A DNA stretch of 64,000 bases from Ancylobacter crimeensis (GTDB lineage Bacteria; Pseudomonadota; Alphaproteobacteria; Rhizobiales; Xanthobacteraceae). Of this stretch, positions 12,159-41,375 are shown piece by piece. The stretch is from positions 186,001 to 250,000 of the forward strand of contig NZ_JALKCH010000003.1 in the NCBI RefSeq assembly GCF_023016805.1. The letters run 5' to 3'. Every line of letters starts with the position of its first letter. The stretch's first letter is position 1. The position numbers and the translations under genes were made by a program. The notes beneath the pieces were generated by a model that saw only the letters and a program-made list of their open reading frames with translations, made no database searches and had not been told where the DNA came from.

Positions 12159-12563
12159 TCAGTCATATTTGATATAGGCAAACCGGAGATCCCCATGGGG
12201 CGTTCCCGCCAGCGCTGTGCCGGGCTCCGCGCCCGGCTGCCAACCCACGACATCCTCTATCTTTTTCGCGAGCTGCAGGTCGCGCTCGGTGATGCCCTTG
12301 GCGTCGTGCGACATGAGCCGCACCTCCACCCAGGCGTAGGAGGCGGTGATGTCCGGGTGATGCCACGCGGCCTCGGCCAGATGCCCGACCGTGTTGATGA
12401 CCATCAGCGTACCTTTCCAGCTCGAGGTGCGGTAGGTACGGCGAATCCAGCCATCCTCAAGCCGCCAGGCGGGAAGCTCGGCGGCAAGGCGGGCGGCGAT
12501 CTCCTGGTCGGAGAGGGTCTTCTTGGGATCGATTTTATCGGGATCGATCGCCATGGCGTTCAT
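12159..12563 (-). CDS. Pterin-4a-carbinolamine dehydratase-like protein
   Basis: A 134-residue member of the 4a-hydroxytetrahydrobiopterin dehydratase (PhhB/PCD) family. The signature HHPDI with preceding GHLAEAAW (about residues 60-71) and the following YAWVEVRLMSHDAKGITERD are the core of the fold. There is no aromatic amino acid hydroxylase nearby; instead it heads the fhcBADC unit, 33 bases before fhcB, so a role with reduced methanopterin (repair or synthesis) is more likely than phenylalanine metabolism. That role is inferred. ATG at 12554 is an alternative start. It is divergent from mptG across about 150 bases that should hold both promoters. Confidence 0.85.
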   Translation of the reverse strand: MNAMAIDPDKIDPKKTLSDQEIAARLAAELPAWRLEDGWIRRTYRTSSWKGTLMVINTVGHLAEAAWHHPDITASYAWVEVRLMSHDAKGITERDLQLAKKIEDVVGWQPGAEPGTALAGTPHGDLRFAYIKYD

Positions 12564-12712
12564 CCTCCGCTCGGGTCCCGCCCGTTCTGGCGCGGACGGC
12601 TATGCCGGATTCGGTAGCACGCCCTCTGCCGCGACGGCAAACAATCATGCCGCATCCGCCGCGCTTGTCGAAAAACCGGCCGAGGCCTTACGATGGGGAC
12701 GAGGAAACGCCT

Positions 12713-13741
12713 GTGAACACAACACGTCTGTCCCTGGATGCGGCCCGCGCGGAAGCGGATGACGCCGTGGTGCGCGTCACCGCGCCGGGTCGCTTGCATC
12801 TTGGATTTCTGGACCTCGCCGGCACGCTCGGGCGTCGCTTCGGCAGCCTCGGCGTGAGCCTCGAACGGCCCGCCACGATCGTCTCGCTACAGCGCGCGGC
12901 GGCACTCGAGGCGACCGGGCCCGATGCGGAAAGGGCGGCCGCCGCGGTCGAAAAAGCCGCACGTCGCTTCGATCTCGATACGCGCGTTAAGGTCCATGTC
13001 GAGGCCGCGCTGCCGCCCCATTCGGGGCTCGGCTCCGGCACTCAGATGGCGCTCGCGGTCGCTGCCGGGCTTGCCGCGCTGCAGGGCAAGACTCTGACGC
13101 CGCGCGAGATCGCCCAAGCGCTCGGGCGCGGCGCACGTTCGGCCATCGGCATCGGCGCCTTCACCGACGGCGGGGTCATCCTCGACGGCGGCAAGGCAGT
13201 GGGGACCGGTGCGGGAGACGCCCCCCCGCCCATCCTCTCCCGCCTGCCCTTCCCCGAGCACTGGCGCATCCTGCTCGTCTACGACCACGGCCATCGCGGC
13301 CTCAGCGGGTCTGAGGAAGTGACGGCGATGAACGAGCTTCCGCCCTTCGCGAATGGCCTCGCCGGCACCCTCGCCCGGCTCACCGTGATGAAGGCGCTCC
13401 CCGCGCTCGTCGAGGATCAGGTGCGACATTTCGGCGAAGCCGTGGGGGAAATGCAGAGATTGCTCGGTGACCACTATGCGGGCGTACAGGGTGGCCGCTA
13501 TACGAGCCCTCATGTCGCCGAAGTCATGGCGTGGATCGAGGCGGCCGGCGTGCCCGGCGTCGGCCAGAGTTCCTGGGGTCCAACCGGCTTCGCTTTTCTC
13601 GGCTCGCCCGACGAGGCGGAGCGACTGATCGGCGAGGTGCGCGCCCGCTTCGGTGCGTCGCCTCATCTGGCTTTCGATTGCGTCCGCGGCAGCAATGCCG
13701 GAGCGCGGATCGAACGGCTTGCCTGCCTCGCGCAGCGCTGA
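12713..13741 (+). CDS. mptG: Beta-ribofuranosylaminobenzene 5'-phosphate synthase MptG (GHMP family)
   Basis: This 342-residue GHMP-type protein makes the committed step of H4MPT synthesis, joining PRPP to p-aminobenzoate or p-hydroxybenzoate with loss of CO2 and pyrophosphate. The GHMP signature PPHSGLGSGTQ lies near residue 100; APGRLHLGFLDL near residue 23 and SSWGPTGFAF near residue 285 are typical of the family. GTG at 12713 was chosen because GAGGAAA stands five bases ahead; longer frames reach back to 12602 or 12647 but have poor upstream text. Divergent from the pterin dehydratase-fhc unit and 90 bases before mtdB. Confidence 0.88.
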   Translation: MNTTRLSLDAARAEADDAVVRVTAPGRLHLGFLDLAGTLGRRFGSLGVSLERPATIVSLQRAAALEATGPDAERAAAAVEKAARRFDLDTRVKVHVEAALPPHSGLGSGTQMALAVAAGLAALQGKTLTPREIAQALGRGARSAIGIGAFTDGGVILDGGKAVGTGAGDAPPPILSRLPFPEHWRILLVYDHGHRGLSGSEEVTAMNELPPFANGLAGTLARLTVMKALPALVEDQVRHFGEAVGEMQRLLGDHYAGVQGGRYTSPHVAEVMAWIEAAGVPGVGQSSWGPTGFAFLGSPDEAERLIGEVRARFGASPHLAFDCVRGSNAGARIERLACLAQR

Positions 13742-13831
13742 GCGGCGGTTTTGGCGAAAGCCCGCGTCGCTATCCTTCTCCCCGCATGAAGAGGCCGCAA
13801 CGGCCCGACGACCCTTGGAGATCGAAACGAC

Positions 13832-14731
13832 ATGGCGGACAAGGCTCCGATTCTTCACATCGTCTCGCCCCTCGCCCACGTCAGCCCGTTCGACGTGAAC
13901 ATGGCGGTCGATGCCGGCTACACGACCATCCTGCCCTATTCGCGGGTGAAGCTCGAGGAGATGACCGACCTCACGCAGGACATGATGTTCTCGCGTGCGC
14001 CGGATCATGCCTCGCGCACCGGCCTGTTCATCGGCGGCAAGGACGCCAGCCTCGCGCTCGACATGGCGAAGGAAGCGACCTCCGCGCTGTTCCCACCCTT
14101 CCAGATTTCGGTCTTCGTCGATCCGGCGGGCTCCTTCACCACCGCCGCGGCGATGATCGCCAAGGTCGAGGAGAAGATCGCCGCCGTACGCCCCGAAGGG
14201 CTCAAGGGCGCCAAGGTGCAGGTCTATGGCGCGACGGGCGTGGTCGGCGGTATCGCGGCGGTGATCGCGGCGCAGGCGGGGGCGGATGTTACGCTGGTCA
14301 GCCATCGCGATGTCGACACCGTCCGGCTCAAGGCTGCGGACTTCAAGGTGCGCTTCAATGTCGATCTTGCGAGCGCGTCCGCCCGCAATGACGAGGAGAA
14401 GAACGCGCTGGTGCCCGACGCCGAGGTCGTGCTCGCCTGCGGCAAGGCGGGCATCCAGATCCTCACCGAGGCCAACCTCGCTTATGCCGGCAAGCTGCTG
14501 GTCGCAGCCGACGTGAACGCCGTGCCGCCGCCCGGTATCGCCGGGGTCGAGGCTAACGACGACGGCAAGCCGATCAGCGGCAAGGCGGTCGGCATCGGCG
14601 CGCTGGCCATCGGTCATGTGAAGTATCGCGTGCAGCACGAGTTGCTGAAGAGAATGCGCGAGACCGATACCGCCCTGAATATCGGGTTCGAGGACGCCTT
14701 CACCCTCGCGCGGTCGCTGCTCGGGAAGTAG
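13832..14731 (+). CDS. mtdB: NAD(P)-dependent methylene-tetrahydromethanopterin dehydrogenase MtdB
   Basis: A 299-residue MtdB that oxidises methylene-H4MPT to methenyl-H4MPT, the first oxidation after formaldehyde binds the cofactor. The N-terminal text KAPILHIVSPLAHVSPFDVNMA and the Rossmann motif QVYGATGVVGG near residue 130 identify it, with VLACGKAGIQIL and VAADVNAVPPPGI in the C-terminal half. Length is typical. GGAGA lies ahead of the ATG. It stands between mptG and the Orf5-type gene, all on the plus strand, followed by mch, giving two consecutive oxidation-pathway enzymes in one unit. No mtdA is seen in the window. Confidence 0.96.
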   Translation: MADKAPILHIVSPLAHVSPFDVNMAVDAGYTTILPYSRVKLEEMTDLTQDMMFSRAPDHASRTGLFIGGKDASLALDMAKEATSALFPPFQISVFVDPAGSFTTAAAMIAKVEEKIAAVRPEGLKGAKVQVYGATGVVGGIAAVIAAQAGADVTLVSHRDVDTVRLKAADFKVRFNVDLASASARNDEEKNALVPDAEVVLACGKAGIQILTEANLAYAGKLLVAADVNAVPPPGIAGVEANDDGKPISGKAVGIGALAIGHVKYRVQHELLKRMRETDTALNIGFEDAFTLARSLLGK

Positions 14732-14764
14732 ACGGCGCAGGCACGGCATGGTGGGACAAGGCTG

Positions 14765-15901
14765 ATGGACGGCGATGCTGATCTCGTCATCGTGGGCGTT
14801 TCCGCCCGCGTGCTGGCGGGCGCGGCTCGTCGCGCCCGCCACGTTCCCATCGTGCTCGACCTGTTCCGCGACGAGGACACCTCCGCGCTCTCGTCGAAGG
14901 CGATCGAGGTCCGGCATCGTCCGGGCCGCCTCGCCTTCGATGCCGACGATCTGATGGAAAAGCTCGACGCCAATGCGCCCGCAGGTCTGCCTGCCGTGCT
15001 CGGCACTGGCTTCGAGGACGAGCCCGAACTCGTGGCGCAGATCGCGGCGACACGACCGGTTCTCGGCAATGACGCGGCGCGGATCGCGCGGGTCAAGGAT
15101 CCCGAAGGCCTCGCCGCACTCGCGAGCCGACTCGGCATTCCCCATCCGCGGCTGTTCTGCGACAGGGCGCCTGATGGCGTAGTCACCCTGGCGAAGAAGA
15201 CCGGCGCTTCGGGCGGATGGCATGTGCGTCCGTCACGGCGTGTGCGCCATGAAGGCTGGTATTTGCAGGAGAAGGTCTCCGGGGAGCCGGTCTCCGCCTT
15301 GTTCCTCGGGAATGGGCGGAAGGCACGCATCCTTGCCTTCTCGCAACAATGGTGTGCGCCGGCGCAGGGTAGCCCTTATCGCTATGGCGGCGCCGTCGGG
15401 CCGATCGAACTGCCCATCCTGACCTCCATTGGGATCGCCGATGCACTCGATCGCCTCGTCGACGCGATCGGCCTTGTCGGACTCATGAGTGCGGACCTGA
15501 TGGTCGATGGCGCGGTGTGGCATCTCCTCGAGATCAACCCACGCCCCGGCGCGACGCTGGATGTCTTCGACCATCCCCCGTTGCCCCCGCTGCTCACCCT
15601 GCATCGGGATGCCTGCTCCGGCATGCTGCCGGAGGCCGGATCGATGAGCGTTGAGCGCTTCGACGGCGCACGCGCGGCGGGCGTACTTTATGCCGCGGCC
15701 GATATCGACATGCACCTCGCTCCCCTTCCTGAGGACATCGCCGACCGGCCATCCCTTGGCCGGCGGATCCGAAAGGGAGAACCCGTCTGCACCGTGCGCA
15801 GCCACGCTCCCGATGCGGAGAGGGCACGCGCCATACTCGCCATGCGCATGGCCGGAATCTGGGACGCGCTGATCGCCGCCCAGCCGGGCCGCGTCCAGTA
15901 G
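14765..15901 (+). CDS. ATP-grasp protein, H4MPT-cluster Orf5 type
   Basis: A 378-residue ATP-grasp-fold protein that regularly accompanies mch in methylotroph clusters (Orf5). The N-terminal third (LVIVGVSARVLAGAARRA) resembles a Rossmann pre-ATP-grasp domain; the middle has KKTGASGGWHV and GWYLQEKVSGEPVS, the ATP-grasp substrate and nucleotide loops; HLLEINPRPGATLDVF near residue 255 carries the Mg-ATP ligands Glu and Asn. An AAGG site precedes the ATG. Orf5 mutants in Methylobacterium are known to be affected in the H4MPT pathway; the reaction is not settled. A carboxylate-amine ligase step on the cofactor side chain is a fair inference. Confidence 0.85.
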   Translation: MDGDADLVIVGVSARVLAGAARRARHVPIVLDLFRDEDTSALSSKAIEVRHRPGRLAFDADDLMEKLDANAPAGLPAVLGTGFEDEPELVAQIAATRPVLGNDAARIARVKDPEGLAALASRLGIPHPRLFCDRAPDGVVTLAKKTGASGGWHVRPSRRVRHEGWYLQEKVSGEPVSALFLGNGRKARILAFSQQWCAPAQGSPYRYGGAVGPIELPILTSIGIADALDRLVDAIGLVGLMSADLMVDGAVWHLLEINPRPGATLDVFDHPPLPPLLTLHRDACSGMLPEAGSMSVERFDGARAAGVLYAAADIDMHLAPLPEDIADRPSLGRRIRKGEPVCTVRSHAPDAERARAILAMRMAGIWDALIAAQPGRVQ

Positions 15902-15910
15902 GAGACTGAC

Positions 15911-16867
15911 ATGAGCCACGCCAGCCCCAGCGTATCCGCCCTTGCCGGGCCTCTGGTCGACGCCCTCGTGGCCGACGCCGACGTATTGCGGCTCTCCGTC
16001 ACGCGCAGCGCCTGCGGCGCGCGGATCGTCGATGCCGGGATTGCCGTGCCAGGCGGGATCGAAGCCGGGCGGCGGATCGGCGAAATCTGTCTCGGCGGGC
16101 TCGGCAAGGTCGGTATCGCCGCCAGCGCCCGCTTTCCGCGCTGGAGCAACATGGTGACGGTGACGACCGCCAATCCAGTGCTCGCCTGTCTCGGCAGCCA
16201 ATATGCCGGCTGGAGCCTTGCGGAAGGCGATTTCTTCGCCCTCGGCTCCGGTCCGGCACGCGCATTGTGGGCAAAGGAAACGCTGTTCGGCGAACTCGGC
16301 TATCGCGACACCGCGAGCCGCGCCGCGCTGGTGCTGGAAGTGGACAAGCTCCCCCCCGATACACTGGTCGCCCATGTCGCCAGCGAATGCGGGGTGGCGC
16401 CGGAAAATCTCACCATGATCCTCACCCCCACCTCCAGCCTCGCCGGCACGGTGCAGATCGTCGCCCGCGTGCTGGAGGTCGCCCTGCACAAGACGCATGC
16501 GCTGCACTTCCCGCTCGACCGGGTCGTGGACGGCATCGGCGCCTCCCCCCTGCCCCCGCCGGCGCCGGACTTCGTCGCCGCGATGGGTCGTACCAATGAC
16601 GCGACGCTGTATGGTGGCGACGTCCAGCTCTTCGTCACCGGGCCGGAGAGCGATGCGCGCGAACTGGCCGAGGGCCTGCCCTCCTCCACCTCGCGCGACC
16701 ACGGGCGCACCTTCGCCGAGATTTTCACCGGCTATAAGGGCGATTTCTACGCCATGGATCCGATGCTCTTCAGCCCGGCCCGCGTTACCGTGACCGCGCT
16801 GGAAACCGGCCGCAGCTTCACATTCGGCGCCTTCCACGAAGACATCCTCGACCGGTCCTTCGCATGA
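15911..16867 (+). CDS. mch: Methenyl-tetrahydromethanopterin cyclohydrolase
   Basis: A 318-residue Mch, which hydrolyses methenyl-H4MPT to formyl-H4MPT, the substrate of the Fhc complex. Family text includes CGARIVDAGIAVPGGIEAGR near residue 36, GGLGKVGIAA, NPVLACLGSQYAGW near residue 87, FALGSGPARAL and DRVVDGIGASPLPPP near residue 204. GGAGA is placed seven bases before the ATG. The last bases overlap the Orf7-type gene in ATGA, so the two are translationally coupled. Cytoplasmic enzyme, expected length. Confidence 0.97.
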   Translation: MSHASPSVSALAGPLVDALVADADVLRLSVTRSACGARIVDAGIAVPGGIEAGRRIGEICLGGLGKVGIAASARFPRWSNMVTVTTANPVLACLGSQYAGWSLAEGDFFALGSGPARALWAKETLFGELGYRDTASRAALVLEVDKLPPDTLVAHVASECGVAPENLTMILTPTSSLAGTVQIVARVLEVALHKTHALHFPLDRVVDGIGASPLPPPAPDFVAAMGRTNDATLYGGDVQLFVTGPESDARELAEGLPSSTSRDHGRTFAEIFTGYKGDFYAMDPMLFSPARVTVTALETGRSFTFGAFHEDILDRSFA

Positions 16868-17787
16868 TCGACCCCGACGCCCATCGCCGCGCCGATACGG
16901 TCGTCATCTTCACCGAAGATGCCGACTGGCACACACGCACCCTGCGTCTCGCCATCGAGAAGCAGGGTCTGCGCGTGCTGGTACTGTCGCTGAACGATTG
17001 CGGTTTCGCCATCGGCGAGACCCCGCACGGGCTGCTGATCCCCGGCCTCGACGGCGCGCTGCCGGCTGCGGTGTTCATCCGCGTCATCGCCAAGGGGACC
17101 ACCGAGCAGATCACGGTGCGGCTCAGCCTGCTGCATGCGCTGCGCGAGCTCGGAGTAAAGGTGATGAACGACGCCCGCGCCATCGAGCGTTGCGTCGACA
17201 AGAGCATGACAAGCTTCCTGATTGCCAAGGCGGGCCTGCCGACGCCGCGTACCTTCGTGCGGGAAGATCGTGCGGCGATGCAGGCACTGGTCGACGAGGC
17301 GCCTGGCGATAGCGTGCTGAAGCCGATGTTCGGCGCGCAGGGCAAGGGGATCAGGCGGATCGCTCCCCGGGACGCCCTGCCGGAGCCGGAGAAGGTGGGC
17401 GGCGTTTATTACCTGCAGGAGTTCGTCGAGGGGCGGCAGAATGACGGCATGTTCCAGGACTGGCGCGTCTATGTCGTCGGTGGCCGTGCCATCTCGGCTA
17501 TGATCCGTCGCTCGGAGCGGTGGATCACCAATATTCACCAGGGTGCGGCGGGCATCCCGGCCCCGGTCGACGGGATTGCCGCCGCCTATGCGGTGCGGGC
17601 TACGCACGCCGTGGGCGCGGATTATGCGGGCGTCGACCTGATCGAGGATGCGCAGGGCCGTTTCACCGTGCTGGAAGTGAACTCCATGCCGGCCTGGAAG
17701 GGCCTCCAGCGCACGACCGACATCGATGTCGCCGGCGCGATGGCCGGGCATCTCGTCGCCTCGCTCGGCGCCAGGGCGACGGCGTGA
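16864..17787 (+). CDS. RimK-type ATP-grasp ligase, H4MPT-cluster Orf7 type
   Basis: A 307-residue RimK-like ATP-grasp ligase. An N-terminal domain is followed by VMNDARAIERCVDKSMTSFL near residue 100, VLKPMFGAQGKGI near 152 (nucleotide-binding loop), YYLQEFVEGRQNDGMFQDW near 180, and FTVLEVNSMPAWKGLQ near 267, which carries the metal-binding Glu and Asn. The family includes MptN, which adds glutamate to H4MPT, and RimK, which adds glutamates to a protein. Methylofuran in Methylobacterium carries a polyglutamate tail, so this protein could make that tail, or glutamylate dephospho-H4MPT; this is inference. Starts within the mch stop and ends within the next GTG. Confidence 0.87.
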   Translation: MIDPDAHRRADTVVIFTEDADWHTRTLRLAIEKQGLRVLVLSLNDCGFAIGETPHGLLIPGLDGALPAAVFIRVIAKGTTEQITVRLSLLHALRELGVKVMNDARAIERCVDKSMTSFLIAKAGLPTPRTFVREDRAAMQALVDEAPGDSVLKPMFGAQGKGIRRIAPRDALPEPEKVGGVYYLQEFVEGRQNDGMFQDWRVYVVGGRAISAMIRRSERWITNIHQGAAGIPAPVDGIAAAYAVRATHAVGADYAGVDLIEDAQGRFTVLEVNSMPAWKGLQRTTDIDVAGAMAGHLVASLGARATA

Positions 17788-18620
17788 ACGCGGGACTGCC
17801 CGCGGTCACTATTGCCGCATGGTTCGAGGCCTCCTGCCGCGAGGAACTGGATGGTCTCAAGCCGGGAAATGTGCACCGTTTCAGCGCCGGTCACTGCATG
17901 GACGTCGTCCATTTCGAGCGGGCGGCGGCGGCGGCGGCGCCGTTGATCGCGCAACCGGACGCGAGCGTCGGGGCGCGGATCGAGGCGGCAGTCAATGCTT
18001 CCTTCGGCGCGACGGGCCTCAACACCAATCTCGGTATCGTCCTGCTCTGTGCGCCCCTCGCTAGCGCAGCCGAACGCGGCGGGATCCTGCGCACTGCGTT
18101 GCAGTCCGTGCTGGACGGGCTGACGGTTGAGGATGCCGCGGCGGCGTTTCGCGCGATCGTCCGCGCCAATCCGGGTGGGTTGGGACGTACGGGCGAGCAT
18201 GACGTCGCAGAGGCCGCGACCATCACACTCAAGCAGGCCATGGCCGCAGCCGCAGACCGCGACCGGATCGCGCGTCAATATGTCTCCGGCTTTGCCGACA
18301 TCTTCACCGTCGGCCTGCCCTGCATCGCCCGGGTTCCGCCGGATGCCCGCGCGGAGGCGGTGCATCTCGCCTTCATGGCAGCTTTCCCGGACAGCCATAT
18401 CCAACGCAAATTCGGGCTTGAAACCGCCCGTCGCGTTCAGCAGGAGGCGCGGGAGGTGGATCTTGCGACGCCGTGGCGAGAGGGCAGCGAACGCCGCCAT
18501 CCGGTCCTCGCTGCCTTCGACGCAAGCCTGAAGGCGCGCGGCCTCAATCCCGGAACCAGCGCCGACCTCACCGTTGCGACGCTGTTCGTCGCGCGGCTCG
18601 AGGGCCTGATCAACCCGTGA
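17784..18620 (+). CDS. Triphosphoribosyl-dephospho-CoA synthase (CitG/MdcB)-like protein
   Basis: A 278-residue helical protein of the CitG family; known members make triphosphoribosyl-dephospho-CoA for citrate or malonate lyase. Seen here are CREELDGLKPGNVHRFSAG near residue 10, GLNTNLGIVLLCAPLA near 78 and the helical region ending DSHIQRKFG near 200. No citrate or malonate lyase genes are near; it follows the Orf7-type ligase in a GTGA overlap, so its role is more likely in H4MPT or methylofuran chemistry. GTG at 17784 was chosen over an upstream frame to 17520 that lies inside the previous gene. Its last 11 bases overlap the end of the convergent HisA-like gene. Confidence 0.8.
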   Translation: MNAGLPAVTIAAWFEASCREELDGLKPGNVHRFSAGHCMDVVHFERAAAAAAPLIAQPDASVGARIEAAVNASFGATGLNTNLGIVLLCAPLASAAERGGILRTALQSVLDGLTVEDAAAAFRAIVRANPGGLGRTGEHDVAEAATITLKQAMAAAADRDRIARQYVSGFADIFTVGLPCIARVPPDARAEAVHLAFMAAFPDSHIQRKFGLETARRVQQEAREVDLATPWREGSERRHPVLAAFDASLKARGLNPGTSADLTVATLFVARLEGLINP

Positions 18621-19308
18621 AGCGGCGCAGGGTCGCGGGATCAAGACGTCCGTCATGCAGGGCGCTGGCGAGGAGGACACCGGCTACCCCCTGCCCGGTC
18701 AGCCGGTCGAGGTCCGAGGTATCGCGTACTCCGCCTGCGGCGTGAACGCGCCGGCGGCCTGCTTTCTGCTGAACCTCGGCGAGCCGCGCGATATCCGGCC
18801 CGGCATCGGAACCGACGCGCGCAAGGGTCATGACGATGAGATCGTCCGGCCAGAGTGCGGGCGTGTCGTGGATCGCGTCCGGCCCCATTCGGCCGCGAGC
18901 GTCATGGTCCAGCGAGAGAATCGTGCCTTCCCCAGCGAGAACGGTGCGGGCCGCCGAGCTGCCTGCCAGCGATTCGGTACCCACGACCGGCCGCCCGAGC
19001 CCCGCCGAGACACGACGCGACACGCGTTCGGGCGTACCTTCCCCGGCATCCACCCACAATGCGAGGCCGGGGTGTCGGCGCTGCAGTGCGCCGATGACGG
19101 CGTCATGATCGCCCCTCCCGCGGATCGCATCGAGGTCGGCGATATAGAGCGTGCGGAACGGCGCGAGGGCGAGCAACGCTTCGGCAATCGCGAAGGGATC
19201 GGAGCCAGGGCAGAGCGGCGTCTCGATCGGGCGATAGCGATCTCGCTCTCCCCTGCGCGCATGTACCACCACCCCTCCCATCAGATCGAGGACCGGTATA
19301 AGTTCCAC
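18610..19308 (-). CDS. HisA/HisF-related TIM-barrel protein of the H4MPT cluster
   Basis: A 232-residue HisA-like barrel: IPVLDLMGGVVVHARRGERD at the N-terminus, LYIADLDAIRGRGDHDAVI near residue 53, LWVDAGEGT near 84, and VHAAGGVRDTSDLDRL near 188. HisA isomerises an aminoimidazole ribotide in histidine synthesis, but this shorter relative sits inside the C1 cofactor cluster with no other his genes, so a phosphoribosyl or furan-related step is inferred. It reads opposite to its neighbours: its end overlaps the CitG-like gene by 11 bases and its GTG start, with AGGAAGG ahead, is 22 bases from the start of the MfnD-like gene. Its promoter must therefore lie in or beyond that gene's 5' end. Confidence 0.78.
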   Translation of the reverse strand: MELIPVLDLMGGVVVHARRGERDRYRPIETPLCPGSDPFAIAEALLALAPFRTLYIADLDAIRGRGDHDAVIGALQRRHPGLALWVDAGEGTPERVSRRVSAGLGRPVVGTESLAGSSAARTVLAGEGTILSLDHDARGRMGPDAIHDTPALWPDDLIVMTLARVGSDAGPDIARLAEVQQKAGRRRVHAAGGVRDTSDLDRLTGQGVAGVLLASALHDGRLDPATLRRFTG

Positions 19309-19330
19309 GCCCTTCCTCCCTCACCACCAA

Positions 19331-20302
19331 ATGGATGGTCGGATGCTCGTCTTCGTATGCGAGACGGTGACCGGCGGCGGCTTTGAAGGAGCCGACCTGC
19401 CGGTGGACCTGATAGCCGAAGCCACGTTGATGCGCGACGCGTTGATCGGCGATCTCGAAGACCTGCCCGGCGTGCGCGTCGTCACCACGCATGATTCACG
19501 TCTGCCACCGCCCCCCCGCGGCGAGAGCAGCGTGGTCGAAGCGGGTATTCCCGCGCGGGAAAAATGGAAGGAACTGTCGGGGCAGGCGCATTGCTGCTGG
19601 CCGATCGCTCCGGAAACCGGCGGCGAACTGGCCACCCTCGCTGCGCTGATGCGCCGCGCCAATCCCCGCGTGATCGCCTGCGATACCGCAACGCTGGACA
19701 TCTGCGCCAGCAAGCACGCTACGTCGCGGGCCCTCGCCGCCGCCGGCATCCGGGTCGTCACGAGCTGGCGCCCGGACGAGGTGCCAGCCGATGCGACGGG
19801 ACCGTTCGTGGTGAAACCGGACGATGGGGCCGGCAGCGTCGACACCTTCGTCATCGCGAACCGGCCCTCGTCGAGCCTCACCGGAGCGGTCGTGCAGCCT
19901 TATGTCCAGGGCGCCCCCCGCAGCCTCACTCTACTGTGCCAGAGCGGGCGGGCCCATGTGCTCGCCGTGAACCATCAGCACGTCGTGCGCAGCGATGATC
20001 GGCTGCTGTTCCACGGCGTAACGGTGGGTGCCGAACCCGTCACGGACGAGCTTTTCGCGCTTGCGAAGCGGATTTATTCCGCACTTCCCGGTTTGCACGG
20101 CCTCGTCGGCGTCGACTTCATCGCGAGCCGCGAGGGGCCGATGGTGATCGAGATCAATCCGCGGCTGACGACGTCCTATGCCGGCCTGCGTCCTGCACTG
20201 GCAATCAATCCTGTCGCGTTCATCGGCGAACTGATACGCGACGGCGTGGTGCCGGACCTGCCCTACCTTCCCATTGCGACTCCCTTCGAGGTGCGACTTT
20301 GA
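19331..20302 (+). CDS. ATP-grasp ligase, MfnD-like (tyramine-glutamate ligase family)
   Basis: A 323-residue ATP-grasp protein resembling MfnD, the archaeal tyramine-glutamate ligase of methanofuran synthesis. Landmarks are FVCETVTGGGF at the N-terminus, CDTATLDICASKHATSRAL near residue 115, FVVKPDDGAGSVDTFV near 158 and MVIEINPRLTTSYAGLRPA near 271 (metal ligands Glu and Asn). Because bacterial methylofuran contains a tyrosine-type unit and many glutamates, the true amine substrate may differ from tyramine. An ATG at 19343 is an alternative start. Divergent from the HisA-like gene by 22 bases, and overlapping the next gene by four bases. Confidence 0.8.
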   Translation: MDGRMLVFVCETVTGGGFEGADLPVDLIAEATLMRDALIGDLEDLPGVRVVTTHDSRLPPPPRGESSVVEAGIPAREKWKELSGQAHCCWPIAPETGGELATLAALMRRANPRVIACDTATLDICASKHATSRALAAAGIRVVTSWRPDEVPADATGPFVVKPDDGAGSVDTFVIANRPSSSLTGAVVQPYVQGAPRSLTLLCQSGRAHVLAVNHQHVVRSDDRLLFHGVTVGAEPVTDELFALAKRIYSALPGLHGLVGVDFIASREGPMVIEINPRLTTSYAGLRPALAINPVAFIGELIRDGVVPDLPYLPIATPFEVRL

Positions 20303-21351
20303 ACGAAATGATGACCGGCGTGGTGCGCCTTGGCTGGGATGTCGGAGGCGCGCATGTGAAGCTGGCGGCCTTCGGCAAGGATGGCAGGCTGAAGGCGATC
20401 CGGATTGCGCCCTGCCCCATCTGGCGCGGCGAAGAGCACCTTGCGACCACGCTGCGCACCTTGCGCGCCGGGTTCGAACCGGGCGTGCCCTCTGCCGTGA
20501 CCATGACGGCCGAGGTGGCGGATCTCTGGCCGGACAGGCACGCCGGCGTCATTGGAACGACAGCCCTTCTGGTGCGTGAGCTCGGCAACGCGCCGCTCGC
20601 TCTTTTCGCCGGGCCGGAGGGCTTCGTGGAACCGCAGGACGCCGCCGCACACTCGGCGACCATCGCCTCGGCCAACTGGTACGCAACCGCGGCCGTGCTC
20701 GGCCATCTGCTGCCGGAGGGAGTCCTTCTCGACATCGGCTCCACCACGACGGACATCATCCCCTTCGGCAAGGGGCGGGTGGCAGCACGCGGCTTCACCG
20801 ACGCGGAGCGCCTCGCCAACAATGAGCTGATCTATACCGGCGTCGTGCGCACGGCGGTGATGGCGATGGCCGAGAGTGCTCCTTTCGACGGGCGCTGGGT
20901 GCCGCTGGCGGCGGAATTCTTCGCCACGAGTGCCGACGTCCACCGGCTGACCGGGGATCTCGCGGAAGCCGCCGATCTTCATCCTGCCGCGGATAATGGA
21001 CCGAAGACCGAGGAAGCCAGTGCGCGGCGCTTGCTCCGGATGGTCGCGCAGGATCTCTCCGCCGCAACCCGGCCGCGGGCGACCCGGCTTGCCCGGCATC
21101 TCGCGGAGGCGCAAACAACGCGGATTGGCCGCGCGCTCGACTGCGTGCTGTCCGGCCTCGACTTCGAGCCGGAGCTGGTGGTCGGCGCGGGCGTCGGCCG
21201 TCTCCTGTCGCGCCGGCTCGCCGAACGGCGCGGGGCCGCCTATCTCGATCTGGGCGACGTGCTGACCGACGAGCCGGCCCTGAGCCAGGAAGCCGCCGAT
21301 TGCGCGCCAGCCGTCGCTGTCGGTCTCCTGTCCGCCGCCCTCTCTTCCTGA
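20299..21351 (+). CDS. MfnF-like hydantoinase/oxoprolinase-fold protein
   Basis: A 350-residue ASKHA/hydantoinase-A-fold protein. The phosphate-binding motifs are LGWDVGGAHVKLA near residue 12 and LLDIGSTTTDIIPFG near residue 143; VVGAGVGRLLSRRLAE near residue 296 is the adenosine-side loop. MfnF couples the furan and amine halves of methanofuran in archaea, and a copy in this cluster is expected. TTG at 20299 overlaps the previous stop (TTGA) and has GAGGTG five bases ahead; ATG at 20308 is possible. The downstream folB starts 21 bases after its stop. Assignment to MfnF, as opposed to another member of the fold, rests on context. Confidence 0.78.
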   Translation: MNEMMTGVVRLGWDVGGAHVKLAAFGKDGRLKAIRIAPCPIWRGEEHLATTLRTLRAGFEPGVPSAVTMTAEVADLWPDRHAGVIGTTALLVRELGNAPLALFAGPEGFVEPQDAAAHSATIASANWYATAAVLGHLLPEGVLLDIGSTTTDIIPFGKGRVAARGFTDAERLANNELIYTGVVRTAVMAMAESAPFDGRWVPLAAEFFATSADVHRLTGDLAEAADLHPAADNGPKTEEASARRLLRMVAQDLSAATRPRATRLARHLAEAQTTRIGRALDCVLSGLDFEPELVVGAGVGRLLSRRLAERRGAAYLDLGDVLTDEPALSQEAADCAPAVAVGLLSAALSS

Positions 21352-21372
21352 CCTTCTTGCGAGAATCGACCC

Positions 21373-21738
21373 ATGTCCGACCGTGTCTTCCTCCGCGGCA
21401 TCGAACTGTTCGCCCATCACGGGCTCTATCCCGAGGAGGCGAAGCTCGGGCAGCGCTTCGTGGTGGATATCGACTGGTGGCTCGACACACGCCAGGCAGC
21501 GCGGGATGACGATTACGAGGAAACAGTCGGCTATCAGGAGGTCTACGAGACGGTAACGCGCGTCTCGGCGGAGCATCGCTTCCACATCCTCGAAGCCTTC
21601 GCCGAGGGCATTGCCGCGGCCATCCTGAAAAGGTTCGGGCGGATCGAGAAGGTTCGCGTGGAAGTCCACAAGCCGTCGGCACCGATCGCCGGAGTGTTTC
21701 GCGACGTTGGCGTAGATATCACCCGCACGCGCGGGTGA
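21373..21738 (+). CDS. folB: Dihydroneopterin aldolase
   Basis: A 121-residue FolB-type enzyme cutting dihydroneopterin to hydroxymethyl-dihydropterin and glycolaldehyde. The N-terminal VFLRGIELFAHHGLYPEEAKLGQ, the tunnelling-fold middle TVGYQEVYETV near residue 50, EAFAEGIAAAIL near 70 and the late VEVHKPSAPIAGVF carrying the catalytic lysine are all present. Full family length. As last gene of the C1 plus-strand run it probably supplies pterin for H4MPT as well as folate; whether another folB exists elsewhere cannot be seen. Ends 30 bases before the convergent cbbR stop. Confidence 0.93.
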   Translation: MSDRVFLRGIELFAHHGLYPEEAKLGQRFVVDIDWWLDTRQAARDDDYEETVGYQEVYETVTRVSAEHRFHILEAFAEGIAAAILKRFGRIEKVRVEVHKPSAPIAGVFRDVGVDITRTRG

Positions 21739-28001: not shown

Positions 28002-28096
28002 AATGACCCCAACGGGGGCACCAAACGAACCAACGCCGAAGAGAGAAACCAGGCGCCAGCGATGCTGCGCGTCAACGGGACAGCCATGGGAGCTGA

Positions 28097-29569
<1,473 letters not shown>

Positions 29570-29675
29570 TCGGCAAGGCCGGAGTTGCTTGGGCAGCTCC
29601 GGCACCATCCAGACATTTCACCCGATCCCGACGCGGCCCCAGGCCTTCCGGGACGACAGAGAGCGAGACATCACC

Positions 29676-30098: not shown

Positions 30099-30180
30099 TA
30101 CGGCCGGTAGCCTCAGGCTTCCGACACCGATGACCGAAACTGGTTCGCTGACCGACCCCGTTCCTCCCCGGGCAGCGAAC

Positions 30181-30220
30181 GGACCGGTCCGGGAAACCGC
30201 GCCCCGGACCGGTCCCTTTT
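30181..30220 (+). terminator. Strong hairpin with T-run between cbbS and cbbX
   Basis: Arms GGACCGGTCCGGG (30181-30193) and CCCGGACCGGTCC (30203-30215) form a perfect 13-bp stem with a nine-base loop, followed by CTTTTCTC. This is a textbook rho-independent terminator by sequence, but cbbX, cbbE and cbbY follow on the same strand 28 bases later, so it more likely acts as a partial terminator or a 3' stabiliser of the cbbLS message. Confidence 0.8.
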
Positions 30221-30247
30221 CTCATCCGTACACAGGGAGCAGCCGCG

Positions 30248-31854: not shown

Positions 31855-31857
31855 TCC

Positions 31858-32574
31858 ATGCGGGCGGAGGGCATTATTTTCGATGTCGACGGGACGCTGG
31901 CCGAAACCGAGGAGGTCCATCGGCAAGCCTTCAACGATACCTTCGCCCGTTTCGACCTTCCCTGGCACTGGGATCGCTCCCTTTATCGTCGGCTGCTAGA
32001 TGTAACCGGCGGCAAGGAACGTATCAGGGCCTATGTTGCATCCGATGATCCTCCGCAAGGCGCTCGCGCCCTGGACCTTGTGCTGGAACTCCATACAGCG
32101 AAGACGGAATGCTACACTGAACTCGTTGTCGCCGGCGCCGCAAAACTTCGTCCGGGGGTCAAGCGTCTGATTGCGGAGGCTCGTCGCGACAGCGTACGGC
32201 TGGCGATCGCGACGACGACCAGTCTGCCGAATGTCGAAGCCCTGCTGGCAGCGGCGTTCGGATCCGATGCCGCAAAGATTTTCGAGTTCATCGGGGCCGG
32301 TGATGTCGTTCCGCGCAAGAAGCCTGCGCCGGACATTTATCGGCTCGTGCTGGACGAAATGCGGATGCCAACCTTTGCATGCATCGCGGTGGAAGACTCG
32401 CGCAATGGGCTCGATTCCGCTCGTGCGGCAGGTCTTCCAACGCTGGTGACCCCAAGCGTCTATACCAGCCACCAGAGCTTTCCTGGCGCGATGGCGGTGG
32501 TGCCTGATCTTGACACACCACCTGTCTCGCTGGCCACCATCGCCAAATGGCGAGCCGCCGACAGCGGATGGTGA
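31858..32574 (+). CDS. cbbY: HAD phosphatase CbbY (xylulose-1,5-bisphosphatase type)
   Basis: A 238-residue HAD-superfamily phosphatase. Motif I is IIFDVDGTLAETEEVHRQAF with nucleophile Asp at residue 9, motif II IATTTSLPN near 118, motif III lysines in VPRKKPAPDIY near 155, motif IV VEDSRNGLDSARAAG near 178. Red-type CbbY proteins remove xylulose-1,5-bisphosphate, a misfire inhibitor of RuBisCO, which fits this last position in a form IC operon. The alternative CbbZ/phosphoglycolate phosphatase is less likely because the TLAETEEVHR start is CbbY-like. Convergent with the acyltransferase gene, 11 bases apart. Confidence 0.88.
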   Translation: MRAEGIIFDVDGTLAETEEVHRQAFNDTFARFDLPWHWDRSLYRRLLDVTGGKERIRAYVASDDPPQGARALDLVLELHTAKTECYTELVVAGAAKLRPGVKRLIAEARRDSVRLAIATTTSLPNVEALLAAAFGSDAAKIFEFIGAGDVVPRKKPAPDIYRLVLDEMRMPTFACIAVEDSRNGLDSARAAGLPTLVTPSVYTSHQSFPGAMAVVPDLDTPPVSLATIAKWRAADSGW

Positions 32575-36705: not shown

Positions 36706-36724
36706 GGAGAAAAATAAGCACGGA

Positions 36725-36745
36725 GCCGGTCCTTTACGGACCGGC
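36725..36745 (+). terminator. Hairpin after pepN
   Basis: GCCGGTCC (36725-36732), loop TTTAC, GGACCGGC (36738-36745), then CCCCCTTATT; 20 bases after the pepN stop. Perfect 8-bp stem, weak T-run. Confidence 0.6.
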
Positions 36746-36768
36746 CCCCTTATTGCAATGCTGAGGAC

Positions 36769-38199
36769 GTGTCGCGACACCATCGTCAACCCGCTGCAGG
36801 TATGAACGCTTTCCGTCCCCCACAGCCGATTCCCACTCCCGAAGGCGCGTATCGGGAAGCTCCAGTCGGGCTATGCAATGTGGATGAGGCGGGTTGCATC
36901 TCGCTCGCAAACGAGAGCTTCGCGCAGATATGCGGAATGACGATAAACGCCCTCCTGGGCCAATCCATCGTCCTCGTCCTGCCTGAACTGGCTCCCCCGT
37001 TCGCGGCTGCGGCCGAGGAAGCAGTATCGGCGGACGTTTCGCTCGTTCGCGATGATCGAAGCCGCGTCCTGCGCGTACACATCAGGCCTTCTCCATCTGG
37101 ACATGCCCTGGCGTTTGTCGACATCACGGAAGACGCCGCTCGCCTCGCCGCACTGACCCAGCAGGCCGAGCGATCGGCTTTCGCGCTCGAGAGCGCCGGA
37201 CAGTGGGTGTGGGATTTCGACATGATCACGGACCGCGTCTGGCGATCGCAGCAGTGGAAGCGCACCCTCGGCTTCTCGCCGGACGAAATGCCGGATGCGG
37301 ACCAGCCATGGAGCATCGTTCACCCATCCGACCGCAAGATCATCGACAGCGCGATGCGGCGCATCCTCGCCGGCGAGGATAAGAGCTTCGAGGCAACATA
37401 CCGGCTGCGTCACAAGGACGGCTCATGGCGCTGGATTTTGAGCCGTGGCAAGGTCATCGCCGAGACCAGCGACGGACGGCCCGCGCGGATGCTTGCCACC
37501 AGCACCGACATCACGCGGCAGAAGGAAATCGAGCAGGAACTGGAGGCCGTCATCCGGCAACGCCGCCTGCTGGAGCACGACCTCGTCCTCGCCAACCGGC
37601 GGCTCAAGATGCTCGCGGAAATCGACAGCCTCACCGAGCTGCCGAACCGCCGGAAGTTTGACCGGGTGCTCGACCGTGAATTTCGGAGGATGCGGCGCAC
37701 ACGTCCAGTGCTTGCTCTTCTCATGATCGATATCGACCACTTCAAGCGGTACAATGATCTTTATGGCCATCCGGCCGGCGACGAATGCCTGCGCCTCGTC
37801 GCCGAGACGCTGCAACACGTCGCCCGACCGAGCCGGGATGTCGTCACACGTTACGGTGGCGAAGAGTTCGCGACGATCCTGATCGACACCAATCCCGACG
37901 ACGCGGCCAGCATGGCACGCGCGTTACAGGGCACCATTCGCGAACTGGCGATTCCGCATGAGGGCAGCCCGCAAGGGAGGATCACCATTTCCATCGGCTA
38001 CACATTCCTCACGCCGCAGAAGCGCGCACCGTGGTGTACACCGCAGCGATTGATCGAGGCCGCCGATCGCGCCCTCTATGCGGCGAAGGAAGCCGGACGC
38101 GACCACATCGGCTTCGCCGGCATCGAAGCGGACGGGAGCATCCAGATCGTGGTGACCAATCACCAGATGGACGCCCCGCCCGCTGAAATCGCGCGGTAG
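36769..38199 (+). CDS. PAS-PAS-GGDEF diguanylate cyclase
   Basis: A 476-residue soluble signalling protein. A first PAS domain covers about residues 25-120, a second PAS_3-type domain about 135-250 (GQWVWDFDMITDRVW, HPSDRK, FEATYRLRHKDGSWRWI), then a short coiled linker and a GGDEF domain about 285-455. The active-site motif is GGEEF at residues 363-367, with LTELPNRRKFD and MIDIDHFKRYND upstream, so cyclase activity is expected. The inhibitory RxxD site is not conserved: Pro occupies the Arg position. GTG at 36769 or ATG at 36802 could be the start. It ends seven bases from the convergent Fae-like gene. Confidence 0.9.
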   Translation: MSRHHRQPAAGMNAFRPPQPIPTPEGAYREAPVGLCNVDEAGCISLANESFAQICGMTINALLGQSIVLVLPELAPPFAAAAEEAVSADVSLVRDDRSRVLRVHIRPSPSGHALAFVDITEDAARLAALTQQAERSAFALESAGQWVWDFDMITDRVWRSQQWKRTLGFSPDEMPDADQPWSIVHPSDRKIIDSAMRRILAGEDKSFEATYRLRHKDGSWRWILSRGKVIAETSDGRPARMLATSTDITRQKEIEQELEAVIRQRRLLEHDLVLANRRLKMLAEIDSLTELPNRRKFDRVLDREFRRMRRTRPVLALLMIDIDHFKRYNDLYGHPAGDECLRLVAETLQHVARPSRDVVTRYGGEEFATILIDTNPDDAASMARALQGTIRELAIPHEGSPQGRITISIGYTFLTPQKRAPWCTPQRLIEAADRALYAAKEAGRDHIGFAGIEADGSIQIVVTNHQMDAPPAEIAR

Positions 38200-38206
38200 C
38201 GTCAGA

Positions 38207-38746
38207 TCAATATTCGACGACGCCGTCGAGAGCGTAGTGCTTGACGGTCGTGCGGTTGGCAATCAGCTGATCGACCGTCGGCTCGCCCTTCAGCGCACGA
38301 TCGATGGCAATTTTCATCGCCTCATACTGGGTGCGATAGAGATCGGCCTTGTCGAGGTCTGAATGCTCGGCGCAGCGGGGGTCGAGCCACACCATCACGA
38401 TCATGCAGATGTCGTCGGCAAGTTCCTTCGGAAGGATGCCCTCTGCCAGACAATCCACGATGGCGTCGCCGATGGCAGCCTGCACCACGCCGCCAAGAAG
38501 GTCGACATATTCGGCGCTCTGGATGGTGACCTTGGTGGTCATCATCGTGGCCGGACGAACCATCTGGTTCAGGTCGCGTACCACGAACATCCGCGTGTGC
38601 CCCTGAACCTGCCCCATCATCGAGGCGAAGGCCTGACCGGCCGGGCCACGAACGGAGCCGATGAGGACTTCCGGCATAGCGTCGGTGAACTGCCCTTCGG
38701 CGGCCAGAACGGTGGCCTCGCCGGTGCGGAACCAGATGTCGGTCAT
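38207..38746 (-). CDS. fae: Formaldehyde-activating enzyme (Fae) family paralogue
   Basis: A 179-residue Fae-family protein. Canonical Fae condenses formaldehyde with H4MPT. Shared text includes VLIGSVRGPAGQAF near residue 27, KVTIQSAEY near 70, AIVDCLAEGILPKE and the final helix YEAMKIAIDRALKGEP. By my alignment from memory, the catalytic His of canonical Fae (in AHIDLIIG) corresponds to Met24 here (AMPEVLIG), so normal condensing activity is doubtful. AAGGAG lies seven bases before the ATG. It is 17 kb from the H4MPT cluster, convergent with the GGDEF gene. A regulatory or sensing role, as proposed for Fae paralogues, is possible but inferred. Confidence 0.82.
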   Translation of the reverse strand: MTDIWFRTGEATVLAAEGQFTDAMPEVLIGSVRGPAGQAFASMMGQVQGHTRMFVVRDLNQMVRPATMMTTKVTIQSAEYVDLLGGVVQAAIGDAIVDCLAEGILPKELADDICMIVMVWLDPRCAEHSDLDKADLYRTQYEAMKIAIDRALKGEPTVDQLIANRTTVKHYALDGVVEY

Positions 38747-39054
38747 GGGATGCTCCTTGGCTGATGGGCGTGCGCATAGCATTGGTGACCGGAGCACGTC
38801 CACCGCCGTTTGGCAGTCCAGCGGCCACTGGGATCGTCCCCAAAATTCACAATTACCTGTCGCAATCCCGAAACCCTTGCGCTGCAGCGGGTCGAAGCGC
38901 GTCGTCGTCGCCGAATGTTGCCGAATCGTTAACTTGACTCGCCTAAGACTCTGGACACGGACCTACCGATTCGATTCAAATCGGCATGATTCGGAGAGAT
39001 GCGGCACGTCCCTCCGTTTACGGGGCACATGGACTTCGAGGGGGAGGCCGGCGG
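38747..39054. other. 308-bp divergent intergenic region, fae-like / histidine kinase
   Basis: No gene is seen. It must hold promoters in both directions. TTGACT at about 38934 is a possible -35 element for the kinase gene, and CCGATT...AATCGG (around 38966-38984) is a short inverted repeat downstream of it. No operator could be assigned. Confidence 0.35.
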
Positions 39055-41367
39055 ATGGCACGCGCCAACGCTGCTGACGCGTCTGCGCGCGTTCAGGCCA
39101 TGCGAGGTCTGGCGCGCTCGGTAGCAAAGCCTGCCTATCAGAGGCTGGTGGAGGCCGAGCCGTTCCTGCGGCGCGCCGTGCCGGCGCTCATCGTTGCGTT
39201 CATCGCCATAGTTGCCGTTGCCGCTATCGTTCAGATCCGCGCCTACCGCAATCAGGCCGTTGCCGACGCAAAGGACCAGCTCGCTCTCTTCTCACTCGCG
39301 ATCACCAACGAGGCTGGCTCGACCGCGCTTGCCGCCGGCAGGACGGACGTATTGCGCAACGCTCTGCCGCCTCGCGCTGCAGAAGCCGGCCGCAGCTATG
39401 CCGTCGCCGACGCGAACGGCACGGTCGTCGCGACCACCGATGGCACGGCGCAGAGCGCCGCCGAAGCCGCAGCTCTTCTCTCCAACGCGCAGCCGCTGGT
39501 CGTCTTCGCCGAGAATGCGGGCGTGCTGGAGGTGTCTCTTTCGGATGGCACGCCGGCATTGGCCACCGTCCGCAATCTCGGCGGCTCGAGCGGCCAGCTT
39601 CTGGCTGTCCAGCCCATCGGCTCAGCCCTCGCGAACTGGCGATCCGATACCATCCTGACCGTCACCCTGCTGACGACGACGGGGGGCGTCCTGCTCATTC
39701 TCGGCTTCGCCTTTCACTGGCAGGCCAGCCGCGCGCGGGAAGCCGACGGCATCTACGACACGGTGCGCGAGCGCATCGACACTGCGCTGAATCGGGGCCG
39801 TTGCGGGCTGTGGGATTGGGACATGGGCCGAGGCCGTATGTTCTGGTCCGATTCCATGTTCGAAATGCTCGGTCACGATCCACGGGATGAGTTGATCTCG
39901 TTCGGCGAAGTGGCGGAAATGATCCACCCAGACGACACGAACCTCTACGACATCGCCAAGGAGCTCGCCGACAAGCCTGGCCGCAGCATCGAACGTGTCT
40001 TCCGGATGAAGAACGCGGATGGCGACTGGCTCTGGGTGCGGGCGCGCTGCGAGGTCGTGCCGCAGGCCAGTGGGGAGGCGCCCCATCTTGTCGGCATTGC
40101 AATCGACGTGACCGAGGAACGACGGCTCGCCGAACGCACCGCCACCGCTGACATGCGGTTGCGGGATGCCATCGAGAGCATTTCCGAGTCCTTCGTGCTT
40201 TGGGACTGCAACAATCACCTCGTGATGTGCAACTCGAAGTTCCAGACCCTCTATGGTTTGCCGGACCATTGCACCGTGCCGGGCACGCCGTTCGAGAAAG
40301 TCGCGAACCACGCGCGCCAGCCAGTCGTGCGCATCCCATTGAAATCCGAAGACCGCCCCGAAGAAGGAGCGCGCGCCTTCGAAGCTCAGATCGAGGGCGG
40401 GCGCTGGCTCAAAGTGGCCGAGCGACGCACCAAGGATGGTGGCTTCGTCTCGGTCGGCACCGACATCACGGCACTGAAGCGCCACGAAGAGCGGCTCATG
40501 GAAAGCGAGAAGCGCCTGATGGCGCTGGTCGCGGACCTGCGCAAATCACAGCAGACGCTCGAATTCCAAGCCCAGCAACTCGCCGAACTCGCCCAGAATT
40601 ACGCGGATGAGAAAACGCGGGCAGAGCAGGCCAACCGCGCCAAGTCGGAATTCCTCGCCAATATGAGCCACGAGCTGCGAACGCCGCTCAATGCTATCAT
40701 CGGGTTCTCGGAACTGATGGAAAGCGGCTTGTTCGGCCCACTCGGTTCCGAAAAATACAATGAATACTGCCGCGATATTCGGGATTCCGGGCGCTATCTG
40801 CTGGATGTCATCAACGACATTCTCGATATGTCCCGCATCGAGGCAGGCCGCGTCCGCCTCGCCCTCCAACCCGTCCGGCTCGACGAGGTTGTGCAGGACG
40901 CACTGCGGGTCATGTCGGTGCGTGCCGATGAGAAACATCTCACGATGGCGGCCGAGATCGACACCGACGTAACCATCGAAGCCGACAAGCGGGCGTTGAA
41001 GCAGATCACGCTCAACTTGCTGTCGAATGCCATCAAGTTCACACCGGAACATGGACGCGTGACCGTCCGTACCCGGCTCTCCGCTCAATCGGCACTTCTC
41101 GTCATCGAGGACACCGGCATCGGCATCCCCCGGGCCGCGCTTGCCACGATCGGCAAGCCGTTCGAACAGGTCGAGAGCCAGTTCACCAAGACACACAAGG
41201 GCTCGGGCCTTGGCCTGGCCATCGCGCGCTCGCTGGTGGAACTGCATGGTGGCACGATGCGGATCCGTTCGTCCGAAGGTACCGGCACGACGGTGGTGAT
41301 CCGCATGCCGACGGCAGCGCGGCCCGGACGTCAGATGCGTGCCGACAGTCTCGACGCCGCCGAATGA
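39055..41367 (+). CDS. PleC/PdhS-like membrane PAS histidine kinase
   Basis: A 770-residue histidine kinase. Two membrane segments (about residues 42-62 and 200-221) enclose a periplasmic sensor region; two PAS-like domains follow (about 235-360 and 370-490), then a coiled coil and the kinase core. The dimerisation motif MSHELRTPLNAIIGFSELM puts the phospho-His at residue 539; N box NLLSNAIKF, G1 IEDTGIGIP and G2 GSGLGLAIA are complete. GFSELMESGLFGPLGSEKY closely resembles PleC/DivJ/PdhS kinases of alphaproteobacterial cell-cycle control. ATG at 39055 follows GGGGAGG at seven bases. No partner regulator is adjacent, as usual for that family. Confidence 0.88.
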   Translation: MARANAADASARVQAMRGLARSVAKPAYQRLVEAEPFLRRAVPALIVAFIAIVAVAAIVQIRAYRNQAVADAKDQLALFSLAITNEAGSTALAAGRTDVLRNALPPRAAEAGRSYAVADANGTVVATTDGTAQSAAEAAALLSNAQPLVVFAENAGVLEVSLSDGTPALATVRNLGGSSGQLLAVQPIGSALANWRSDTILTVTLLTTTGGVLLILGFAFHWQASRAREADGIYDTVRERIDTALNRGRCGLWDWDMGRGRMFWSDSMFEMLGHDPRDELISFGEVAEMIHPDDTNLYDIAKELADKPGRSIERVFRMKNADGDWLWVRARCEVVPQASGEAPHLVGIAIDVTEERRLAERTATADMRLRDAIESISESFVLWDCNNHLVMCNSKFQTLYGLPDHCTVPGTPFEKVANHARQPVVRIPLKSEDRPEEGARAFEAQIEGGRWLKVAERRTKDGGFVSVGTDITALKRHEERLMESEKRLMALVADLRKSQQTLEFQAQQLAELAQNYADEKTRAEQANRAKSEFLANMSHELRTPLNAIIGFSELMESGLFGPLGSEKYNEYCRDIRDSGRYLLDVINDILDMSRIEAGRVRLALQPVRLDEVVQDALRVMSVRADEKHLTMAAEIDTDVTIEADKRALKQITLNLLSNAIKFTPEHGRVTVRTRLSAQSALLVIEDTGIGIPRAALATIGKPFEQVESQFTKTHKGSGLGLAIARSLVELHGGTMRIRSSEGTGTTVVIRMPTAARPGRQMRADSLDAAE

Positions 41368-41375
41368 GTTGAAGC

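Follow-up and report, generated by a model that had tools for sequence, protein, structure and literature searches.

Fae2, a conserved paralogue of formaldehyde-activating enzyme in an Ancylobacter genome, has methionine at the position of Fae His22 and accompanies the H4MPT pathway

What is known about the relatives of the gene described here comes from published work on Fae homologues and their context (PMC7356819, PMC10613068, PMC8879981, PMC3615186, PMC2680597, PMC3763247, PMC8153426, PMC3621897, PMC4109929, PMC3728764, PMC6277846, PMC5023235, PMC11748545). Fae homologues with unknown function are named there as an open point of methylotrophy (PMC11748545), and it has been proposed that functionally uncharacterised Fae-like groups are regulatory, act in sensing or have H4F-linked roles (PMC11748545 among other sources). 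In these reports, deletion of fae1 from Methylobacterium aquaticum 22A in a wild-type background abolished growth on methanol; deletion of fae2 slowed growth on methanol and reduced the yield on methanol plus succinate, and in 22A without mxaF a fae2 deletion grew like its parent. M. universalis FAM5 is reported to require fae1 and to grow normally when fae2 or fae3 is deleted (the fae2 there being matched to ours by name only), with a tabulated 11.7-fold increase of fae3 on methylamine. Also reported are moderate expression of fae2 in M. trichosporium, and a fae3 from M. alcaliphilum that did not rescue the AM1 fae mutant. The Fae2 and Fae3 names used in these papers were matched to the clades below by inference, and in 22A by the plasmid and by uniqueness.

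The Fae2 clade has therefore already been named in the literature, and the protein described here adds a member to it. Its gene (Table 1) lies in the window, by which we mean the whole stretch of 64,000 nucleotides that was analysed. The initial annotation had called the product Fae-like without giving a strand. The gene is on the minus strand, and the description is borne out by profile matches to PF08714 (Fae; 187.4 bits, E 2.2e-55, cut-off 27) and to TIGR03126, the NCBIfam equivalog for Fae1 (EC 4.2.1.147; 121.4 bits, barely above the cut-off of 118.05). Of the solved structures, the nearest in sequence is that of M. extorquens Fae, 1y5y. The genome, which is 4.3 Mb in 26 contigs and 99.87% complete, yielded two Fae homologues. 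The second is a Fae1 with the motif AHIDLIIG, at C20:168947-169420 on the same contig and about 55 kb from fae2, and the two proteins are about 34% identical. We identify the window gene as fae2, which is an old paralogue of the gene for formaldehyde-activating enzyme and under strong constraint.

Table 1. Features of the fae2 locus, in window coordinates
Feature	Position	Strand	Basis
fae2 coding sequence, 179 aa, Fae-family paralogue	38207..38746	minus	ATG at 38746; ORF translation, profile, tree, alignment
Leader of fae2 with AAGGAG ribosome-binding site	38747..38765	minus	read from sequence
Codons 23-31 of fae2 (AMPEVLIGS), including Met24, Pro25 and Glu26	38654..38680	minus	computed from ATG at 38746
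His50 codon of fae2; always His in the examined rows of Fae2 and Fae3, mostly Phe in Fae1	38597..38599	minus	alignment, sequence
Intergenic region between fae2 and the divergent kinase gene	38766..38985	minus	
PAS + GGDEF protein (cyclase), convergent neighbour, no conserved partner	36769..38199	plus	domains, loci comparison
PAS/HisKA/HATPase sensor kinase, divergent neighbour in some lineages only	38986..41367	plus	domains, loci comparison
H4MPT pathway and cofactor biosynthesis cluster	12159..21738		domains

A template-free model of the protein, of medium confidence (mean pLDDT 64, poor at residues 45-71), was used for a fold search, in which 1y60_A came first (E 1.9e-12, TM 0.72/0.76). As modelled, the window protein has the Fae fold. 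Two models were compared, one made with near-identical rows only and the other with Fae1 rows added; both had a mean pLDDT of 64, and residues 46-71 were resolved by neither.

A tree was made of 81 rows (77 of them different) by a quick method, with SH-aLRT support only and with group labels preset by motif. Fae1 (23 rows), Fae2 (45) and Fae3 (13) each occupy one side of a branch, with supports of 99, 97 and 92 respectively, and the labels Met, Glu and His change twice on the tree, which is the minimum. The window protein falls inside the Fae2 clade and outside those of Fae1 and Fae3.

The segment AMPEVLIG had been aligned in the initial annotation with AHIDLIIG of Fae. A gap-free count back from the common IG agrees with this, and places Met24 at H22, Pro25 at I23 and Glu26 at D24. 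We take H22 of Fae to be the catalytic acid, and the pterin contacts of the enzyme are presumably D24, L53, K71, T73 and Q88. The combination of AMPE and His50 is present in 52 of 52 Fae2-type sequences, the window's included, which were collected by whole-protein searches in which no motif was used (the best 30 of the order search, L113, L115, five plasmid copies, and 15 from the order of genome G880). A further 80 named loci came from a pattern search that included TDAMPE; all 80 have Met, but they are kept outside the 52. At the H22 column, all 34 Fae1 loci read have His (AHID in 33, AHVD in one), and all ten Fae3 rows of the alignment have Glu. The alignment as a whole splits 122/10/13, in groups that are defined by the residue itself, and this split is hence not taken as proof. 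We found no description of the His-to-Met exchange in the literature searched, outside which the founding Fae2/Fae3 papers lay, and we claim no priority.

Conservation was compared over 21 Fae1, 45 Fae2 and 13 Fae3 rows, the divergent His-type sequences L134 and L136 being left out of Fae1. Of the positions conserved in both Fae1 and Fae2, 22 have the same residue and 18 a different one, the latter including H22M, I23P, D24E, F49H, L53F, F84G and H121D (Fae1 to Fae2). At the presumed pocket, D24 is replaced by Glu and L53 by Phe or Tyr; Lys72, Thr74 and Gln89, the counterparts of Fae1 K71, T73 and Q88, are retained in at least 95% of the Fae2 rows. Positions conserved at 95% or more number 57 in Fae2 versus 97 in Fae1, the Fae2 row set being wider and larger. 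The only invariant histidines of Fae2 are His50, a position occupied by Phe in most Fae1 and again by His in Fae3 (and in the divergent L136), and His170, which is common to all three groups and is H164 in Fae1. H121, another conserved histidine of Fae1, is missing from Fae2.

The initial annotation had proposed that loss of the histidine implies a job other than that of bulk Fae1, a proposal that another histidine in the active site would undermine. The proposal itself is supported, since Met24 is clade-wide and published fae1 mutants in a wild-type background do not grow on methanol despite an intact fae2. The objection of a second histidine carries some weight: His50 and His170 are both invariant in Fae2, with His50 in the poorly modelled region 45-71. 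The invariant His50, shared with Fae3, may leave room for a rebuilt active site. The bulk condensing activity of Fae2 has probably been lost or changed.

In a whole-protein search of the window's order, at least 80 of 397 genomes had any Fae and at least 45 encoded a protein that shares 66-100% identity with that of the window; two weaker bands lay near 40% and near 33% identity, all among the matches listed. Copies were read from 31 of these 45 genomes (the best 30 and L115), and five were read from about 14 Fae2-type matches on plasmids. Fae2-type copies at more than 60% identity occur in three of 289 genomes in a sample of the class, two of them belonging to the window's order, and copies at 55-65% identity occur in 15 of 200 genomes from another order, that of G880, whose place on the tree is with named betaproteobacteria. 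Met-type copies are found in alpha-, beta- and gammaproteobacteria.

Mch is present in 45 of 45 Fae2 genomes versus 33 of the other 352 (78 of 397 overall; p 2e-38, with kinship ignored and Fae2 carriers taken from the matches listed). The same 45 carriers, again among the matches listed, all have a Fae1-type match (E <= 1e-40). Both Mch and a Fae1-type match are present in 16 of 16 further carriers (15 of G880's order, and G466), giving 61 of 61 in total. In addition, four of 101 loci have fhcBADC as the next genes upstream of fae2 and on its strand: those of Azoarcus KH32C, where the gap between fhcC and fae2 is 26 bp, of G880, of G1051 and of G466, which is of the window's class. From the 61 carriers and these four loci, we conclude that Fae2 belongs to the H4MPT formaldehyde pathway, and it is a specialised Fae paralogue of that route. 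A published Methylophilaceae ecotype 7 genome has fae2 and lacks the true fae, and Fae1 is therefore not strictly required by Fae2.

For 17 genomes in which both loci were read (136 pairs), pairwise identity averages 81.1% among Fae1 proteins and 78.9% among Fae2 proteins, with Fae2 the more alike in 57 pairs. Fae2 is thus nearly as conserved as Fae1, if somewhat less. Within 12 Ancylobacter loci (66 pairs), fae2 has a median dN/dS of 0.094 and a maximum of 0.208, which rules out a pseudogene.

The position of the gene between a cyclase and a kinase, as initially annotated, is confirmed by the domains of the two neighbours, and its distance from the H4MPT genes, given as 17 kb, measures 16.5 kb. 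The H4MPT cluster contains an mptG-like gene, an Mpt_N dehydrogenase, mch, an mptN-like ligase, TIGR03123 and folB. Between this cluster and fae2, at 26916-32574, there are genes that by eye look like those of the Calvin cycle (aldolase, RuBisCO subunits, CbbX, epimerase, phosphatase).

A functional partnership with the flanking signalling genes is not supported. Among the 101 fae2 loci, some of which have short flanks and 80 of which are close named relatives, this kinase is in the flank of 26 and this cyclase in that of seven, and their occurrence is lineage-specific. The kinase-flanked loci comprise 22 of the Ancylobacter/Xanthobacter type and four from Methylobacterium, in which the kinase is on the other side and convergent. 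A looser clustering of 90 fae2 loci, including the window, gave 24 with a kinase and ten with a cyclase. The gene pepN is in the flank of 23 of the 101 loci. Apart from fae itself, H4MPT genes flank fae2 in 17 loci and are absent from the flank of 84 (L097, which has only pcd, not being counted as having them); in 13 Ancylobacter-type loci they are 3-10 kb away. Co-transcription of fae2 with the kinase is ruled out, as the two genes are divergent. It is concluded that fae2 moves around, and that what stays with it is the presence of the H4MPT pathway in the genome rather than the signalling genes next to it in the window.

Close to fae2 there is a TGGACG ... GCTAT element; in an alignment of 16 related loci, TGGACG recurs in 13 and GCTAT in 11. 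A promoter consensus scan of 38100-39100 gave no sites, and no Rfam match reached the gathering score in 36500-41500. The 240 bp upstream of fae2 contain four to six GANTC sites in 16 of 17 rows (window 38747-38986 and 16 loci), L053 having one, and the sites lie mostly in the kinase-side half. We presume these to be CcrM methylation sites of a cell-cycle promoter for the kinase. In 13 fae2 loci (12 from Methylobacterium, and L076), fae2 is preceded on its strand, at a distance of about 60-70 bp, by a gene whose product by eye resembles an NRAMP-type metal transporter, and the two possibly form an operon in that one lineage.

We take as our starting point that His is replaced by Met throughout the clade as sampled, that the Lys, Thr and Gln are retained, and that Fae2 co-occurs with the H4MPT route. 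The reading that we tentatively prefer, with a probability of about 0.4, is that Fae2 binds pterin without bulk condensation and serves as an accessory protein of the H4MPT route. Fae2 would still bind dH4MPT or methylene-dH4MPT in the Fae cleft, and would no longer accelerate the bulk condensation of formaldehyde. Beside Fae1 it would act as an accessory ligand-binding protein that holds or reports the methylene-H4MPT pool. It might be coupled to Fhc; some bacteria have the genes of this complex immediately before fae2 and in its orientation. The weakest step is that from binding to an output, which we infer could be buffering, hand-over or signalling.

Less probable is that Fae2 is instead an enzyme with a rebuilt site, in which Glu26, His50 and the Lys/Thr/Gln set carry out another C1-pterin reaction, such as the formation or hydrolysis of methylene-H4F or a transfer between H4F and H4MPT. 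The changes around the presumed pocket are concerted and clade-wide, the invariant His50 is common to Fae3, and the gene is under strong constraint, all of which argue for an enzyme, and published sources (PMC11748545 among them) propose an H4F role for Fae homologues. In 18 of the 101 loci, metF-metH is upstream of fae2, but all 18 are from Methylobacterium, so that the arrangement is confined to one genus. In the one annotated Fae3 record inspected, Fae3 is next to an N-methylglutamate-type cluster. Fch shows no association with Fae2 (22 of 45 Fae2 carriers versus 14 of 33 Mch-bearing non-carriers, p 0.65), and the strict tie is to H4MPT instead; the idea of a link to H4F through Fch was accordingly rejected. 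The 18 differently fixed positions fit a rebuilt enzyme and a binding protein equally, and the sequence data do not separate the two. A broader and more doubtful proposal is that Fae2 and Fae3 form a second branch among the C1-pterin enzymes, one that exchanged the His acid for Met or Glu and gained His50 and Glu26. Such a branch would carry out a new methylotroph reaction, for example C1 transfer between H4F and H4MPT, or release of formaldehyde from a methylene-pterin.

Still less probable is that Fae2 is an ordinary isoenzyme of Fae, slower or otherwise timed, with His50 or His170 doing the work of His22. The retention of K71, T73, Q88 and H164/H170 and the poorer growth on methanol of the 22A fae2 mutant are consistent with this, and the TIGR03126 cut-off is exceeded, but by a margin of just 3 bits; H121 has been lost as well, and in the published work a resident fae2 fails to rescue fae1 deletions. 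The initial annotation had suggested that Fae2 senses formaldehyde or methylene-H4MPT and signals via the adjacent cyclase or PleC-like kinase. This has in its favour the adjacency in the window and the proposals of sensing by Fae homologues in print (PMC11748545 among the sources), but it is most improbable and was rejected, because the neighbourhoods are lineage-specific and come in two different arrangements. Fae2 as such may have a sensing role. Finally, a decaying, functionless duplicate, for which the lost histidine might speak, can be dismissed in view of the low dN/dS, the spread over three proteobacterial classes and the published 22A phenotype.

The exceptionless His-to-Met exchange in the Fae2 sequences read, in a presumed pocket that is otherwise kept, is a concrete and testable reason why fae2 cannot replace fae1, and this single position separates Fae2 (Met) from Fae3 (Glu). 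It also means that the annotation of Fae2 as 'formaldehyde-activating enzyme', seen on several plasmid records, may be functionally wrong.

Some further observations were made on Fae relatives. No relatives were found when the Fae2 profile was run against viral contigs. Seven IMG/VR contigs (L207-L213) encode Fae1-type proteins that are 67-76% identical to the genome's Fae1, one of them a fragment; these genes are either phage-borne or misassigned host DNA. Locus L136 (G882:C1, about 115.5 kb) encodes a very divergent Fae with the motif AHINVLVG and an end branch of 3.46; the same genome encodes Fae1 and Fae2 as well. Fae1-type genes occur as tandem pairs in G1006, G1045, G1160, G1157, G1024, G1106 and G238. 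At G210:C1:389888-390824, mch is in two overlapping pieces in different frames, which reflects a frameshift or a sequencing error. PDB chain 8ub7_B, of 290 residues and named Avd, has a Fae-like stretch at 141-284, and is perhaps an engineered fusion.

Among known systems, the formaldehyde sensor EfgA belongs to the DUF336 family and not to Fae, and resembles Fae2 only in the kind of role proposed. Fae1 (1y5y/1y60) shares with Fae2 its family, its fold and 22 positions including K71, T73 and Q88; it differs in that His22, Ile23, Asp24, Phe49, Phe84 and His121 of Fae1 are replaced in Fae2. Fae3, a name that we assigned to its clade by inference, is the sister clade of Fae2 if the tree is rooted on Fae1, and has Pro25, Glu26, Gly34, Gly37, Gln46, His50, Val88 and Trp120 in common with it. 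Where Fae2 has Met in place of the His, Fae3 has Glu, and identity between the two is about 40%. On plasmid pLVM1 of Methylobacterium sp. DM1 (L145), a Fae3-type gene is beside glutamine amidotransferase, glxC-like, FMN glutamate-synthase-like and type III glutamine-synthetase genes, in this one annotated record a make-up of the methylamine N-methylglutamate cluster type. The closest comparison is with Fae2 of M. aquaticum 22A (Maq22A_1p31155, plasmid pMaq22A_1p), which is 79% identical to the window protein, has the motif TDAMPEVLIGS, falls within the Fae2 clade and is the only Fae homologue found on that plasmid. Our 22A copy (L141) was matched to the locus tag by plasmid name and uniqueness, the gene table showing no gene in that stretch. 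Unlike the window gene, 22A fae2 is borne on a megaplasmid with metF-metH upstream. Because it is the sole place on the plasmid with a Fae, at 79% identity and with the Met motif, the 22A copy is taken to be the ortholog of the window gene.
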